Shown here: in pieces, positions 3,060 through 15,511 of the stretch
Numbering within the stretch: the first letter of the stretch is position 1
Layout of the letters: every line of letters starts with the position of its first letter
NCBI GenBank assembly: GCA_027592745.1
Contig: JAQCLG010000003.1
Span: 1-53,982 of the forward strand
Length of the DNA stretch: 53,982 nucleotides
Direction of reading: 5' to 3'
Origin: Pseudomonadota bacterium
GTDB taxonomy: Bacteria > Pseudomonadota > Alphaproteobacteria > SP197
The notes under the pieces: generated by a model
Database searches by the model: none
The model's input: the letters and a program-made list of their open reading frames with translations, nothing else
Told to the model about the DNA's origin: nothing
Translations under genes and position numbers: made by a program

Positions 3060-4376
3060 TCAACTCTCGTTGCGCGCGGTGATGGCCAGCGCGTGGGCAT
3101 CGAAGCCCTCGTAGCGGGCGAAGGCCTCGGTCTGGGCGGAAAGGCGCCGGTAGCCGCCGGCCGAGACATCGGCGATCGACTGGCGCTTCATGTAGTCGAG
3201 CACGCCCAGCGCCGAATGGGTCGCGGCCATGCCGCCGGTCGGCAGCACGGCGTTGACGCCGATCATGAAGTTGGCCATGGAAAACGGCGCATCCTGGCCC
3301 AGCAGGAGTTCGCCCGCGTTGACGATGCCGGGCACCCAGTCCCAGGCGCGGGTGCTGGCGATCTGGAGATGTTCGGGCGCGAAGGCGTTGGCGAAGGCCA
3401 GGGCGTCCTCGCCGTCGCGGGCGACGACGAGGCCGCCGTTGACGCCCAGCGCCAGCCCAGCCCATTCCCTGCGTTCGGGACCCAGGCGGCCGAGCAGCGT
3501 GACGACATGATCGGCGACGGTGGCCGCGAAGGCCTCGTCCAGGCAGACCAGGAAGGTCGTGGAATCGGGCCCGTGTTCGGCCTCGACCAGCAGGTCGAGC
3601 GCGACGCGGAAGGGATCGGCGGTCTCGTCGGCCAGCACCATGCTCTCGGAGGGCCCCGCCGGCGGCCCCGGCGCGATGGCCTCGGCGCAGAGTTGCATGG
3701 CGGCACCCACCCAGGGCGAACCCGGCCCGACGATCTTGCGGCACTTCGGCACGGTCTGCGTGCCGTAGGCGACGGCCGCGACCCCCTGGGCGCCGCCGGC
3801 CAGGTAGATCTCGGAAACCCCGGCCTCGCGCGCGGCGACCATGGTGCCGGCGTCGCACCTGCCGCCCGGCCCGGGCGGCGTGACGATCACGACACGGGGG
3901 ACGCCCGCGACCATGGCCGGGATCGTCGTCATGAGGGAGACCGAGGGAAAGGCCCCCTTGCCGCGCGGCACGTAACAGGCGACCGCCTCGATCGGGACGT
4001 AGCGGTCGCCGGCCAGCACGCCGGGACGCACGGCGGTGAGTTCCAGGCTGTCGGGCTTCTGGCGTTCGTGGACCAGCGCGATGTTGCTGGCAGCCTCGCG
4101 GATCGCGGCGACGACGTCGGCGGGCACGTCGTCATAGGCCGCATCGATGTCGGCCTTGCTGACGCGGATGCGCTCCGGGCTCATCTCGACCTTGTCGAAG
4201 TCGCTGGCAAAGCGGACCAGCGCGGCATCGCCCTCGGCCCGCACGGCATCGACGATCGGGCGGGCGCGGGCCACGAACTCGGCAAGATCGATCACGCCGC
4301 GCCGGACCAGGGCCTCGCGTTCCCCTGCGGCAAGACGGTCGAGATGTAGGATGCGCGGGCGGCGCGCCTGCGTCAT
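3060..4376 (-). CDS. Histidinol dehydrogenase family NAD-dependent dehydrogenase (HisD paralog)
   Basis: A 438-residue HisD-family protein. The nucleotide-binding core (CYVPRGKGAFPSVSLMT; IYLAGGAQGVAAVAYGT), the GPSES block and the catalytic pair in FAPEHLQIAS are present. True HisD oxidises L-histidinol twice using zinc bound by Gln, His, Asp and His. Here the first ligand position reads VEAEHGPDS instead of the usual SQAEHGPDS, a Gln-to-Glu change, and the Asp region reads MIGVNAVLPT. HisD paralogs acting on other alcohols are known (for example sulfopropanediol dehydrogenase HpsN), and the gene lies away from the his operon in this window. A non-histidine role is therefore more likely than amino acid synthesis, but histidinol activity cannot be excluded. 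Confidence 0.85.
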   Translation of the reverse strand: MTQARRPRILHLDRLAAGEREALVRRGVIDLAEFVARARPIVDAVRAEGDAALVRFASDFDKVEMSPERIRVSKADIDAAYDDVPADVVAAIREAASNIALVHERQKPDSLELTAVRPGVLAGDRYVPIEAVACYVPRGKGAFPSVSLMTTIPAMVAGVPRVVIVTPPGPGGRCDAGTMVAAREAGVSEIYLAGGAQGVAAVAYGTQTVPKCRKIVGPGSPWVGAAMQLCAEAIAPGPPAGPSESMVLADETADPFRVALDLLVEAEHGPDSTTFLVCLDEAFAATVADHVVTLLGRLGPERREWAGLALGVNGGLVVARDGEDALAFANAFAPEHLQIASTRAWDWVPGIVNAGELLLGQDAPFSMANFMIGVNAVLPTGGMAATHSALGVLDYMKRQSIADVSAGGYRRLSAQTEAFARYEGFDAHALAITARNES

Positions 4377-7531: not shown

Positions 7532-7671
7532 CTGCGTCTCCCCTGTGGCCGCGGCCGGCATTCTAGTGGGTTCCCGCGCGGTTGACAGGGGGCGGCCGAT
7601 GCAAGAGGTTCTGCCCGCCCAAGACCGGCCCATCCCGGCGCCCGGAGTTCGATCCATGGCCGACGACCATC

Positions 7672-8556
7672 ATGCCCAGCCCAACGCAAGAACCGATCAT
7701 CCGTCTGGGCCTGCCCAAGGGCCGCATGCAGGAAGCCGTGTTCGACCTGCTGGAGCATGCCGGGATTCACATCACGGCAAGCGGGCGTAACGACCGCGAC
7801 TACCGTCCCAGGCTCTCGCTGCCCGGCTTCGAAGCCAAGCTGCTGAAGCCCCAGAACATCGTCGAGATGCTGCATGTCGGCAGCCGCGACCTGGGCTTTG
7901 CCGGCGCCGACTGGGTCGCCGAGAAGGGCGCCGAGCTGATCGAACTGCTCGACACCGAACTCGATCCGGTCAGCCTTGTCGCGGCCCTGCCCTCCAAGAT
8001 GCTGAACGACGGCGCCCTGCCCGACCAGCACCTGGTGGTGGCCAGCGAATACGAACGCCTGACGCGCAACTGGATCGCCGCGCGCGGCCTGGACGCCACC
8101 TTCGTGAGGAGCTACGGCGCGACCGAGGTGTTCCCGCCCGAGGATGCCGACTGCATCGTCGACAACACCGCCACGGGATCGACGCTGCGGGCCAACGGGC
8201 TGTCGATCGTCGACACGGTGATGACCTCCTCGACCCGGCTCTACGCCCATCCCTCCGCACTGGAATGCGCGACCAAGCGCGATTCGGTGGAGAGTTTCGT
8301 CACCATGGTGCGCTCGGTGCTCGATGCCCGCCGCCGGGTGATGGTCGAGGTCAACGTCTCGGCCGAGAACCTGGAGGCGGTGATCGAGGTGCTGCCCTGC
8401 ATGCGCGAACCCACGGTCTCGCCCCTGCACGGCGACGGCGGCTTTGCATTGAAGGCCGCCATTCCCCGCGAGATGCTCGCCCGCGTCATCCCCGAGATCA
8501 AGGCGCGCGGCGGCACCGATATCGTCGTCTTCCAGATCGGAAACATCGTCGCCTGA
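7672..8556 (+). CDS. hisG: ATP phosphoribosyltransferase, long form (HisG)
   Basis: A 294-residue HisG that joins ATP and PRPP in the first step of histidine synthesis. The start [19 protein letters not shown] at 7672 was chosen over the upstream in-frame track start because the family begins with this strand. The catalytic domain shows the PRPP loop [17 protein letters not shown] and [10 protein letters not shown]. The C-terminal 75 residues ([20 protein letters not shown] to [11 protein letters not shown]) form the ACT-like histidine-feedback domain, making it the long class that needs no HisZ. It heads a plus-strand operon with hisB 10 bases downstream. Many alphaproteobacteria use the short HisG plus HisZ, so this form may be an acquired or second set (inference). 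Confidence 0.95.
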
Positions 8557-8566
8557 GGCAGAAGCC

Positions 8567-9154
8567 ATGACCGCGCGCTGCGCCACCGTCGTCCGCAAGA
8601 CCCGGGAAACCGACATCACGGTGACCGTCACCCTCGACGGCACCGGCAAGGCCGAGATTTCGACCGGCCTGCGTTTCCTCGACCATCTGCTCGACGGCCT
8701 GACCCGCCACAGCCGCATGGACGTCACGCTCTCGTGCACCGGCGACCTCGACATCGACGATCACCACACGGCCGAGGACTGCGCCCTGGCCCTGGGCCAG
8801 GCCTTCGACGAGGCGCTGGGCGACAAGCGCGGCATCGCCCGCTTCGGCCATGCCTACGCACCGCTCGACGAGGCCCTTGCCCGCGCCGTGCTCGACATTT
8901 CCGGGCGGCCCTATGCCTTCGTCGACCTCGGCCTGCGCCGTGAGAAGGTCGGCGACACGGCGAGCGAAATGATCGGCCATGCCCTGCAGTCCTTCGCCAT
9001 GGCCGCGAAGATCACCCTGCATGTCGAGCTGATCCGCGGCCAGAACGACCACCACCGCGCGGAGGCCGCCTTCAAGGCGCTGGCGCTCGCCCTGCGCATG
9101 GCGGTGGCGGCGGCCGGGCACGACGAGGTGCCCAGCACCAAGGGCGTGCTGTGA
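8567..9154 (+). CDS. hisB: Imidazoleglycerol-phosphate dehydratase (HisB)
   Basis: A 195-residue monofunctional HisB, the manganese enzyme that dehydrates imidazole glycerol phosphate to imidazole acetol phosphate. The two metal-binding repeats are intact: [16 protein letters not shown] and [44 protein letters not shown] and the C-terminal PSTKGVL are also present. There is no N-terminal phosphatase domain, so histidinol-phosphate phosphatase must be encoded elsewhere. Its stop overlaps the GTG start of hisH by four bases. Confidence 0.95.
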
Positions 9155-9759
9155 GCACGCCGCGCGAGGTCGTCGTCTGCCGCACCGGCACGGCCAACCT
9201 GGCCTCGGTCTTTGCCGGCCTGCGCCGGGCCGGCGGCACGCCGCGCATGGCCGAGACCGTCGCCGACATCGAGAACGCCGGCCACGTCATGCTGCCGGGC
9301 GTGGGTTCCTTCGGCCATGCCATGGAGACCCTGCGCGAGGCCGGCATGGTCGCGCCGCTGGTTGCCCGTTTCGCGGCGGGCCGGCCGACCATGGCGATCT
9401 GCGTCGGCTTGCAGCTGCTGTGTCTGAGCAGCGAGGAATCGCCCGGCGTCGAGGGCCTGGGCGTGATCGAGGCCGACGTCTTCCGTTTTCCAGAAAACGT
9501 GCGCGTGCCCCAGTTCGGCTGGAACCACGTCACGGCCAACACCGATTGCCGGCTGATCGCCAGCGGACATGCCTATTTCGCCAATTCCTACCGCCTGGCC
9601 GAACGGCCCAGCGGCTGGGCCGTGGCGATCGCCGAACACGGCGGCACCTTCGTTGCCGCCATGGAGCGGGGCGCGCTGGTGGCCTGCCAGTTCCATCCCG
9701 AGCTTTCGGGCGCCTACGGCCACGCCCTGCTCTCGCGCTGGATCGCCACGCCATGCTGA
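9151..9759 (+). CDS. hisH: Imidazole glycerol phosphate synthase, glutaminase subunit (HisH)
   Basis: A 202-residue class I glutamine amidotransferase that feeds ammonia to HisF. The nucleophilic Cys sits in [10 protein letters not shown], the oxyanion/PGVGSF block reads [13 protein letters not shown], and the catalytic His and Glu are in CQFHPELSG. The start is GTG at 9151 within the hisB stop. The end overlaps hisF by seven bases, as expected for two subunits made in equal amounts. Confidence 0.95.
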
Positions 9760-10535
9760 CCTGCCGCGTCATTCCGTGCCTGGACGTCGACAACGGCCGC
9801 GTCGTCAAGGGCGTGCGCTTCCAGGGCCTGCGCGATGCCGGCGATCCCGTCGAGCTGTCCATGGCCTACGAGGCCCAGGGCGCCGACGAACTGGTCATGC
9901 TCGACGTCTCGGCGACACCCCAGGGCCGCGGCAACGCGCTGGTGACGGTCGCTGCCGTGCGCGCCGAACTGGCGATCCCGCTGACCGTGGGCGGCGGCGT
10001 GCGCCGGGTCGAGGACGCAGGCGCCCTGCTGGAAGCGGGCGCCGACAAGGTGGCGGCCAACACGGCCGCCGTGGAACGCCCGGAACTGCTGAGCCAGATC
10101 GCCAACCGCTACGGCAGCCAGTGCGCCGTGGTCGCCATCGATGCGGCCCGCCGCCTGGAGGGCAAGGAAGGCTGGGAGGTCGTCGTCCATTCGGGCAAGG
10201 ACCGCACCGGCAAGGACGCCGTCGCCTGGGCGCGCGAGGCCGTCGCGCGCGGCGCCGGCGAGATCCTGCTGACGAGCTGGGACCGCGACGGCACGCGCAG
10301 CGGCTACGACACCGACCTGCTGGCCGCCGTGTCACAGGCCGTCCACGTACCGGTCATCGCATCCGGCGGCGCGGCCAATGCCGAACACCTGATCGCGGCC
10401 CTGAAGGCCGGCGCCGACGCGGTGCTCGCCGCCTCGATCTTCCACGAACGGGAGTTCACCGTGGGCGACATCAAGCACGCCATGGCCGCGGCCGGCATCC
10501 CCGTGCGGCTCGACGACACCGCACCCCGGGGCTGA
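9753..10535 (+). CDS. hisF: Imidazole glycerol phosphate synthase, cyclase subunit (HisF)
   Basis: A 260-residue beta/alpha-barrel protein starting at the ATG at 9753 ([17 protein letters not shown]); the ORF track runs far upstream through hisH in another frame and should be ignored. Both catalytic aspartates are present, in PCLDVDNG and VVAIDAAR, together with the phosphate-binding TVGGG, ASGGA and [11 protein letters not shown]. Small variants such as [10 protein letters not shown] and [10 protein letters not shown] are diverged but conservative. With HisH it converts PRFAR to imidazole glycerol phosphate and AICAR. The MFS gene follows after ten bases. Confidence 0.95.
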
Positions 10536-10545
10536 GGCCGCAGCC

Positions 10546-11736
10546 GTGGACGCTTCCGCCCCAAGGCGCCTGCCGGTTGTCGCCTTCTGCCTTGGCCACA
10601 TGGCGGTCGACTGGCCCCATGGCGCGATCTGGATCCTGGCGCCGGCGCTGGCCATCGCCATGGACCTGTCGCCGGGCGAACTGGGCACGCTGTTTGCCGT
10701 CACGGCGGTGGGCAGCACGGCCACGCACATTCCCGCCGGCATGATCACCGACCACTTCGGGCGGCGCGGCCTGCTGTTCGTCACCACCTTCGTCTGGGTC
10801 GTGCTGGGCTACGGCGCGGCGACCCTGGCGCCGGACTTCTGGTCGCTCACCTTCATGCTGGCGCTGGCCGGCATGGGCACCTCGGCCTGGCATCCCCTGG
10901 CGACCGGCACCCTGACCCAGGCGATGCCCGGCCAGCGCGCCCGCATCCTGGGGATCCACGCCATGGGCGGCACGATGGCGGAGGTCTTTGCCCCGCTGCT
11001 GACCGGCGTCTTCCTGACCTTCGTCGACTGGCGCACGGGGCTTGGCCTTTCGGTCGTGCCGGCGGTCGTCATGGGCGTCGTTTTCTTCGCCCTGCGCGAC
11101 CGCATGAACTTGCCCGGCCATGCCGGCGCCTCGATGCTCGACATGAAGGACCTCTGGCGGCGCTGGTCGAGCCGCACCGGCCTTGCCCTGGTCGCCATGA
11201 TCAGCATCTACAACATGGCGATCATGGCGGTGCTGGCGATGGCGACGCTCTACCTAGTCAACGACCTGGGGCTGTCGACGACCACGGCCGGCTTCGCCTT
11301 TGCCGCCATGATCCTGGCCGGCGCCCTGCTGCAGCCCGTGATGGGCCATCTCTCGGACCGGCGCGGCCGGCGCAAGGTGTTTGCCGCCTCCCTGCTGGCG
11401 GCAGCACCGCTGGGCCTTGCCATGCCCTTCGTCGAGAGCCCGCTGGTCGCGGTCGCCTTCCTGGTCGGTATGATCGGCGCCTTCTACGGCGTGCGTTCGG
11501 TGGTGCTGGCCTCGGCGGTCGACTTCGCCGGCAAGCGGGAAGGCACGACCCTGGGCCTGACCTTCGTCATGATGGACGGCATCGGCGCGCTGGGCGCCCT
11601 GCTCGGCGGCTTTGCCGGCGATTTCGACCTGACCTGGGCCTTCGTCCTGGCATCGGGCTTCGCCGTCGTTTCCGCGGTGATCGCCATCCTGTCGAGCCTT
11701 GCCTTCCCCGTCATTGCCCCGGAGAGCCGGACGTGA
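10546..11736 (+). CDS. Major facilitator superfamily transporter embedded in the his operon
   Basis: A 396-residue membrane protein with about twelve hydrophobic segments, GTG start at 10546. The MFS signature between segments 2 and 3 is visible (GMITDHFGRRGLL), and its repeat in the second half reads GHLSDRRGRRKVF. A hydrophilic loop around residues 185-205 divides the two six-helix halves. Its end overlaps the hisA-hisI-hisE start by four bases and it begins ten bases after hisF, so it is a full member of the operon. Transporters are not usual in his operons. It could export an imidazole intermediate or product, or import a precursor; the substrate cannot be read from the sequence. Confidence 0.9.
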   Translation: MDASAPRRLPVVAFCLGHMAVDWPHGAIWILAPALAIAMDLSPGELGTLFAVTAVGSTATHIPAGMITDHFGRRGLLFVTTFVWVVLGYGAATLAPDFWSLTFMLALAGMGTSAWHPLATGTLTQAMPGQRARILGIHAMGGTMAEVFAPLLTGVFLTFVDWRTGLGLSVVPAVVMGVVFFALRDRMNLPGHAGASMLDMKDLWRRWSSRTGLALVAMISIYNMAIMAVLAMATLYLVNDLGLSTTTAGFAFAAMILAGALLQPVMGHLSDRRGRRKVFAASLLAAAPLGLAMPFVESPLVAVAFLVGMIGAFYGVRSVVLASAVDFAGKREGTTLGLTFVMMDGIGALGALLGGFAGDFDLTWAFVLASGFAVVSAVIAILSSLAFPVIAPESRT

Positions 11737-12995
11737 TCATTCCCTCGATCGACCTGATGGGCGGCCAGGCCGTCCAACTCATCGGCGGCAAGGAACGCGC
11801 GATCGAGGCGGGCGACCCGCGCCCGATCGCCGAAAGGTTCCGCCTGGCCGGCGAGATCGCCGTGATCGACCTCGACGCCGCCCTGGGCCAGGGCGACAAC
11901 CGTGCCCTGATCGAGGAACTGGTGAAGCTGGCGCCCTGCCGGGTAGGCGGCGGCATCCGCGATGTCGAGACCGCGATCCGCTGGCTCGATGCCGGTGCCG
12001 CCAAGGTGATCCTGGGAACGGCGGCCAAACCGGAGATCCTGCGCGAACTGCCGCGCGAGCGGGTGATCGCCGCGCTCGACGCGGTCGAGGGCGAAGTCGT
12101 CACGCACGGCTGGACGACCAGGACGGGCGCCTCGATCGACGACCGCATGGCCGAACTGGCGCCCTATGTGGGCGGTTTCCTCGTCACCTTCGTCGAGCGC
12201 GAGGGCCGTATGCAGGGCACCGACATGGCGGCGACGCGCCGCCTGGTCGATGCCGCGGGCAAGGCCAGGCTGACGGTGGCCGGCGGCTTCACCACGGCCG
12301 AGGACATCGCCCTGGCCGACAGGGTCGGTGCGGACGCCCAGGTCGGCATGGCGCTCTACAGCGGCCGCCTGAACCTGGCCGACGCCATCGCCGCACCGCT
12401 GAAGAGCGACCGGGCGGACGGGCTGTGGCCCACGGTGGTCTGCGACGTCCACGGCCGCGCCCTGGGCCTGGTCTATTCCGACCTCGAGAGCCTGCGGGTG
12501 GCGGTCGAGCGCCGCGTGGGCGCCTATCACAGCCGCTCGCGCGGCCTGTGGGTCAAGGGCCAGACCTCCGGGGCGACCCAGGAGCTGCTGAATATCGACC
12601 TGGACTGCGACAGGGATGCCCTGCGGTTCACCGTCGCCCAGGCCGGGGCGGGTTTCTGCCACCTCGACACCTGGACCTGCTGGGGCAAGGACGGCGGCCT
12701 GCCCGAACTGGCCCGCCTGACCGCCGCGCGGCGCGCGGATGCGCCCGAGGGTTCCTACACCCGCCGCCTGTTCGAGGAAGCCGGGCTGCTGGACGCCAAG
12801 CTGGTCGAGGAGGCCGGCGAACTGGCCGGGGCGTCCAATCCCGAGGACGTCGCCCACGAAGCCGCCGACCTGCTCTATTTCGCCATGGTCGCCATGGCGC
12901 GGGCGGGGGTTTCCCTGAGCGACGTCGAAGCCGTGCTGGAACGGCGCGCCCGCAAGGTGACGCGCCGCCGGGGCGACGCCAAACCCGCTTCCTGA
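11733..12995 (+). CDS. Trifunctional fusion HisA-HisI-HisE
   Basis: One 420-residue chain carries three histidine enzymes. Residues 1 to about 228 are the ProFAR isomerase barrel HisA (IIPSIDLMGGQAVQL, second catalytic Asp in ALDAVEGEVVTHGW, Thr in LVTFVEREGRMQG). Residues about 229 to 318 are phosphoribosyl-AMP cyclohydrolase HisI: YHSRSRGLWVKGQTSG, the metal aspartates in DLDCDRDAL, and cysteines in GFCHLDTWTCW. Residues about 320 to 415 are the phosphoribosyl-ATP pyrophosphatase HisE: GSYTRRLFE, AKLVEEAGEL, EAADLLYFAMV. HisI-HisE fusions are common; joining HisA in front is not something I recognise. No frameshift is needed. The GTG start overlaps the MFS stop. Together the domains cover three steps (out of order with HisG) in one protein. 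Confidence 0.93.
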   Translation: MIIPSIDLMGGQAVQLIGGKERAIEAGDPRPIAERFRLAGEIAVIDLDAALGQGDNRALIEELVKLAPCRVGGGIRDVETAIRWLDAGAAKVILGTAAKPEILRELPRERVIAALDAVEGEVVTHGWTTRTGASIDDRMAELAPYVGGFLVTFVEREGRMQGTDMAATRRLVDAAGKARLTVAGGFTTAEDIALADRVGADAQVGMALYSGRLNLADAIAAPLKSDRADGLWPTVVCDVHGRALGLVYSDLESLRVAVERRVGAYHSRSRGLWVKGQTSGATQELLNIDLDCDRDALRFTVAQAGAGFCHLDTWTCWGKDGGLPELARLTAARRADAPEGSYTRRLFEEAGLLDAKLVEEAGELAGASNPEDVAHEAADLLYFAMVAMARAGVSLSDVEAVLERRARKVTRRRGDAKPAS

Positions 12996-15117: not shown

Positions 15118-15142
15118 TCCTCCGGGTCAGAGCGCTACGATG

Positions 15143-15172
15143 GGGCCGCGGCAGAGATGCCGCGGCCCTTTT
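15143..15172 (+). terminator. Rho-independent terminator of groESL
   Basis: GGGCCGCGGCA and TGCCGCGGCCC form a perfect 11-pair stem with a GAGA tetraloop, followed by TTTT. It starts 25 bases after the groEL stop. Confidence 0.95.
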
Positions 15173-15220
15173 CGTTTGAAGGGGCGCGATCCGTTCGATT
15201 GCCACCAGGAGGTGCACATC

Positions 15221-15511
15221 ATGGCCATGAAGAGCCCGCCCCACCCCGGACTTTCGGTCCGTCTCGATTGCCTGGAGCCGCTCGGGCTGACGGTGACCGA
15301 GGCCGCCCGGGGCCTTGGCATCAGTCGCAAGCAGCTCTCCGACATCGTGAGCGTGCGCTCGGGGATCTCGCCCGAGATGGCGATCCGCCTCGACAAGGCC
15401 TTCGGCGGCGGCGCCGAGACCTGGCTGCGACTGCAGACCGCCTACGATCTCGCCCAGGCCATGCAGAGGTCCGACGAGATCAAGGTCGAGAGGCTGACCC
15501 GAGCAGCCTGA
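15221..15511 (+). CDS. HigA-family antitoxin-like HTH protein, no toxin partner seen
   Basis: A 96-residue XRE/HTH protein of the HigA (VapI) type, starting at the ATG at 15221 ([15 protein letters not shown]) behind AGGAGGTGCAC; the second ATG at 15227 is also possible. The HigA hallmarks are the PxHPG start, an HTH ([22 protein letters not shown]), [17 protein letters not shown], and the ending [16 protein letters not shown]. HigA normally follows a HigB mRNA-cleaving toxin, but only 103 bases with the groEL terminator lie upstream and no HigB-like ORF is present on either side. It is flanked by two copies of a terminator-like repeat. It may be a solitary regulator. Confidence 0.9.

Follow-up and report, generated by a model that had tools for sequence, protein, structure and literature searches.

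A HisA-HisI-HisE fusion, probably a trifunctional enzyme of histidine biosynthesis, in Alphaproteobacteria and other bacterial groups

Can a single bacterial polypeptide carry three successive steps of histidine biosynthesis? The question is raised by one gene in a 53,982-nucleotide stretch of DNA from an alphaproteobacterium of the SP197 lineage (assembly GCA_027592745.1, contig JAQCLG010000003.1), termed "the window" below in its full length. A sequence-only reading had proposed that HisA, HisI and HisE are joined here without interruption in a chain of 420 residues. As judged from sequence comparisons, the gene product is very probably a genuine trifunctional HisA-HisI-HisE enzyme. In the following we describe the architecture, distribution and catalytic residues of the fusion, and outline its likely role.

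One reading frame at the end of a histidine gene cluster

The fusion gene consists of a single stop-free frame of 420 codons, the start of which shares nucleotides with the stop codon of the preceding MFS transporter gene (GTGA) and is preceded by a GGAG motif about 8 nt in the 5' direction (Table 1). A domain search recovered all three expected families in the order PF00977 (HisA, E 1.2e-41, profile positions 1-227 of 228), PF01502 (HisI, E 1.1e-21) and PF01503 (HisE, E 9.3e-19), each far over the Pfam cut-off, and the proposed uninterrupted chain is thus borne out. The HisE part also passes the curated NCBIfam model TIGR03188 (66.5 bits, cut-off 42.7). The HisA part remains under the NCBIfam HisA equivalog cut-offs (152.5 bits for the best HisA model, as compared to 243), and therefore represents a divergent HisA.

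An AlphaFold model built from 30 aligned fusions reached a mean pLDDT of 91.1 and a pTM of 0.84. Its N-terminal part best matches HisA/PriA structures in the PDB, e.g., S. enterica HisA (5a5w, TM 0.84 by target), and its C-terminal part best matches the plant HisIE HISN2 (7bgn). As judged by comparison with E. coli HisIE, the start of HisI follows the last helix of the HisA barrel almost immediately. Since the LDWxK start of HisI is still visible at the junction in some deeper-branching fusions, HisI is nearly complete, and a long linker is absent. Production of a separate HisIE from an internal start was also considered and discarded, as no clear ribosome-binding site precedes the candidate codons around the junction (ATG at residue 206, GTG at residue 235).

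The fusion is the last gene of a compact cluster with the order hisG-hisB-hisH-hisF-MFS-hisAIE, downstream of which lie groES and groEL. These surroundings strongly imply a role in histidine synthesis. Two Planctomycetota genomes harbour the fusion in the cluster hisG-C-B-H-F-hisAIE-D. The MFS gene is kept in one related genome (G006) and absent from others, e.g., G002.

Table 1. Features of the window around the fusion gene and domains of its product.
Feature	Position	Strand	Evidence or remark
hisD (histidinol dehydrogenase)	3060..4376	-	Pfam; divergent from cluster
hisG (with HisG_C domain)	7582..8556	+	Pfam
hisB (IGP dehydratase)	8567..9154	+	Pfam
hisH	9151..9759	+	NCBIfam TIGR01855 over cut-off; 4-nt overlap with hisB
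hisF	9759..10535	+	NCBIfam TIGR00735 over cut-off
MFS transporter gene	10546..11736	+	Pfam; between hisF and fusion, stop overlaps fusion start
hisA-hisI-hisE fusion gene	11733..12995	+	420 aa, GTG start; same one-frame architecture in dozens of other genomes
HisA (ProFAR isomerase) TIM-barrel domain, residues 1-213	11733..12371	+	Pfam, alignment, PDB matches
PRA-CH (HisI) domain, Pfam core residues 246-317	12414..12683	+	Pfam
PRA-PH (HisE) domain, residues 324-405	12702..12947	+	Pfam
Small helix-turn-helix protein after groEL, HigA-type antitoxin-like	15140..15511		HTH_3

Distribution and evolution of the fusion

A search for the same architecture in other genomes was rewarded dozens of times. 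All 16 genomes of the window's family, the window's own included, carry the fusion in one frame, and the other proteins are 69-92% identical to that of the window. Overall, at least six bacterial phyla harbour the fusion, and some of the records are closed chromosomes, such as that of Planctomycetes bacterium Pla163 (CP036290). Scanning of contigs retrieved records labelled Alphaproteobacteria, Myxococcota, Planctomycetota, Acidimicrobiales and Treponema, and the labels also include Actinomycetota genomes; these group names are the depositors' titles, and as many entries are metagenome bins, some may be wrong. The label may also be wrong for a bin named Acidimicrobiia (L092), the stand-alone HisA of which groups with Acidobacteria. 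A six-frame check yielded 62 matches with HisA and HisIE in one stop-free frame, where a few genomes from two overlapping collections are counted twice.

In evenly drawn samples the fusion was found in 66 of 237 Myxococcota, 30 of 247 Spirochaetota, 25 of 294 Planctomycetota and 11 of 385 Alphaproteobacteria genomes (the latter from four family codes), and about 13 full-length fusions were present among 247 Acidobacteriota genomes; these tallies include some partial matches. Five Myxococcota genomes (G736, G770, G886, G901 and G916) yield two matches each, a close (66-72%) and a distant (39-43%) one, some of which are partial. Moreover, two chains comprise HisA and HisI without HisE (L145:1381-2406 and L146:2632-4122) and are located in full his clusters; they might be a stage on the way to the full fusion, or might have lost HisE.

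A tree of HisA sequences groups all fusions with the stand-alone HisAs of Acidobacteria in one clade (support 99/100), which a long branch separates from canonical HisA. The stand-alone Acidobacteria proteins fall inside the fused group, as would be seen if the fusion had arisen several times independently. Yet, placing all fusions in one clade gives a tree that is just as likely (log-likelihood 0.25 higher, AU p 0.508), and several origins are not needed to account for the data. Independent origins thus appear possible but rather doubtful, and would not conflict with the same function. Monophyly of the alphaproteobacterial fusions is rejected with full-length proteins (AU p 0.011), while the test with HisA only is not significant (p 0.246). 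The window protein shares 72% identity with some Myxococcota fusions as compared to 57% with the fusion of the alphaproteobacterium G034. The patchy tree suggests horizontal transfer between phyla as the simplest reading, although mislabelled or contaminated bins could contribute to the pattern.

Catalytic residues and copy number

The sequence-only reading had further stated that all catalytic motifs are present, which holds for HisI, HisE and most of HisA, but not for one HisA position. The window protein retains the HisA residues D7, D116, W127 and T152, corresponding to D7, D129, W145 and T171 in E. coli numbering, and harbours E157 in place of Asp176. In an alignment of 91 fusions, which includes the two HisE-free chains, D7, D129 and T171 are invariant, and W145 is conserved in 90 (one gap). 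Asp176 is replaced by Glu in 90 of the 91 proteins, with the sole exception of L148, and S202 by Ala in all of them; the GGG-R phosphate-site motif is kept. The HisI metal-ligand motif DCDRD (D291, C292, D293, D295) and C309, H310 and C316 are likewise present in the window protein, and the equivalent D80, C81, D82, D84, C97, H98 and C104 are conserved in 91/91 fusions. In the HisE part the window protein keeps E359, E360, E363, E376 and D379; E152, E153, E156, E172 and D175 are conserved in 88-89 of the 91 sequences.

D176 is the catalytic aspartic acid of HisA and has been modelled as protonated (PMC9088769). In an independent phmmer alignment to solved PriA structures, this Glu is again paired with that Asp, without a gap. 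While Asp itself is not retained, Glu still provides a carboxylate, so it could work alike at this position, and Glu157 presumably does the job of Asp176. Glu is also found in the stand-alone HisAs of Acidobacteria and in one archaeal HisA (L098). Therefore, the fusion is not the cause of the replacement, and since the Acidobacteria proteins fall into the same clade as the fusions, the change is probably older than the fusion.

The genome that contains the window is 99.03% complete with 2.22% contamination, and is a draft of 263 contigs. Full-length matches to PF00977 are limited to HisF and the fusion, the fusion provides the only PRA-CH match, and the only other PRA-PH match is partial (positions 29-65, E 9.5e-4) and taken to be a MazG-like protein. 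Accordingly, the fusion is this genome's only full-length HisA, only HisI and only convincing HisE, although the draft state leaves some room for a second copy. In the closed genome of Pla163 the fusion is likewise the only full-length HisA (HisF apart) and the only HisI. HisF apart, it is also the only full-length HisA in 13 further genomes outside the window's family, and a single PRA-CH, located within the fusion frame, was found in Pla163, in 13 further fusion genomes of several phylum labels and in G078 of the window's family. G063 contains one further partial match to the HisA/HisF family, and G078 a second full-length HisA, which is a degenerate paralogue.

Some same-family genomes harbour an isolated extra HisA-like gene without his neighbours (L119, L121, L122, L124 and L126); in L119 one adjoining ORF looks SoxG-like by eye. 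In all five copies examined D7 is replaced by Glu, D129 by Ala and T171 by Val. These proteins are unlikely to act as ProFAR isomerases, the fusion is the only plausible HisA of their genomes, and redundancy through a second HisA was discarded on these grounds. Same-family genomes also encode extra stand-alone HisI-like proteins with the metal motif changed from DCD to DDD (L123:2936-3415, L125:3412-3936 and L128:673-1620), which we take to be possible zinc-independent HisI paralogues.

These findings bear on the view that the HisA domain is degenerate or otherwise employed, e.g., as a structural or regulatory barrel, and that only HisI and HisE are active. The replacement of Asp176, the low scores to HisA equivalog models and the additional HisA-like gene in same-family genomes would fit such a scenario. 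However, the other key residues and the phosphate-site motif are kept, the window genome and the 14 fusion genomes checked outside its family lack another full-length HisA apart from HisF, and the extra HisA-like proteins have themselves lost the key residues. Furthermore, the Acidobacteria G075 and G076 possess the Glu form as a stand-alone protein beside hisF and have no other full-length HisA. A degenerate HisA domain is therefore improbable. Still less probable is a HisA domain that is bifunctional like PriA (HisA and TrpF) and would render the chain tetrafunctional. The best sequence matches in the PDB are indeed PriA-type isomerases, but the hisA-trpF model scores 68 bits against a cut-off of 306, and a separate member of the TrpF family is encoded in the window genome (E 1.5e-36), such that a TrpF activity of the fusion is not needed. 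Finally, the draft state of the assembly might raise the suspicion that hisA and hisIE were joined in error through a lost stop or a frameshift, yet this is refuted with near certainty by the same joined frame in independent genomes, namely all 16 of the family, the closed Pla163 chromosome and dozens more.

Proposed function and relation to known enzymes

Given its status as sole copy and its location in a his cluster, the fusion is best read as the enzyme that serves steps 2, 3 and 4 of the histidine pathway, in line with the earlier suggestion that successive steps are kept in one protein (PRATP to PRAMP, ProFAR and PRFAR). The C-terminal HisE domain would cut phosphoribosyl-ATP to phosphoribosyl-AMP (step 2), the middle HisI domain would open the adenine ring to yield ProFAR (step 3), and the N-terminal HisA barrel would isomerise ProFAR to PRFAR (step 4), the substrate for HisH-HisF encoded just upstream. 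The order of the domains is the reverse of the order of the reactions, and the HisI-then-HisE arrangement of ordinary HisIE is kept. Presumably all three sites are active. Plant HisIE forms a tight dimer, in which the two active domains are separate (PMC8102479), and by analogy the fusion may dimerise through HisI/HisE and thus carry two HisA barrels per dimer. Joining presumably equalises the dosage of the activities or brings them close together, without forming a physical tunnel. More tentatively, the fused HisA and its stand-alone relatives might constitute a HisA lineage of their own, in which Glu takes the place of Asp176 as catalytic acid, and the fusion might have spread across phyla since coupling to PRA-CH is beneficial, e.g., by handover of ProFAR within one dimer; we regard this extended scenario as doubtful.

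The sequence-only reading did not recognise a HisA head on HisIE as a known fusion, yet such chains are on record. A sequence-network study from 2021 mentions trifunctional PRA-PH/PRA-CH/ProFAR-isomerase sequences in Spirochaetia and Gammaproteobacteria (PMC8102479), and HisA/F-HisIE fusions have been noted in four archaeal metagenome assemblies (2024, PMC11237513). These chains combine the same three activities as the fusion described here, and our survey also includes Spirochaetota. The two papers devote one sentence each to the subject, without residues, neighbourhoods, copy numbers or tests, and do not name Myxococcota, Planctomycetota, Acidobacteriota, Alphaproteobacteria or Acidimicrobiales in this context. 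Fani et al. (2007) give five his fusions, among which HisA-HisIE is absent (PMC1963479), and the consulted passages of reviews on histidine-gene fusions list HisIE, HisNB, HisHF and HIS4, but not HisA-HisIE. An exact-name search for HisA-HisIE gave only unrelated papers among the matches listed, and the open-licence literature yielded no biochemical test of the fusion; fuller accounts may exist outside it.

Bacterial and plant HisIE (E. coli HisI, HISN2) share with the fusion the domain order, the metal ligands and the acidic HisE residues. In contrast, they lack the HisA barrel, to the last helix of which the N-terminal start of HisI is joined in the fusion. Yeast HIS4 (HisI-HisE-HisD) likewise combines HisIE with a third his enzyme; its partner, however, is a C-terminal HisD that catalyses the last steps, whereas the partner in the fusion is an N-terminal HisA that would catalyse the next step. 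Pfam detects no Histidinol_dh domain in the fusion chain and hisD is a separate gene, so the chain is not of the HIS4 type. The stand-alone HisAs of Acidobacteria (L091-L096, L105 and L112) share the clade and the Glu of the fused HisA, but are unfused, and most of these loci have a separate hisI elsewhere. PriA resembles the predicted role of the HisA part in its barrel fold and ProFAR isomerase activity, and differs in its TrpF function, for which the genome with the fusion has its own family member.

Taken together, the chain is real and conserved, and almost certainly functions as a trifunctional enzyme. As far as we found, its architecture has been recorded only in passing, and its breadth, its sole-copy status, the Asp-to-Glu marker and the HisA-HisI forms are additions to the published record. 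Given a fusion that is a genome's only provider of three steps and that occurs in approximately 3-28% of the sampled genomes of five groups, these functions may be overlooked or split in draft annotations. The fusion also constitutes a natural test of whether the coupling of steps 2-4 matters, and of whether HisA can work with Glu where the well-studied enzymes have a catalytic Asp.
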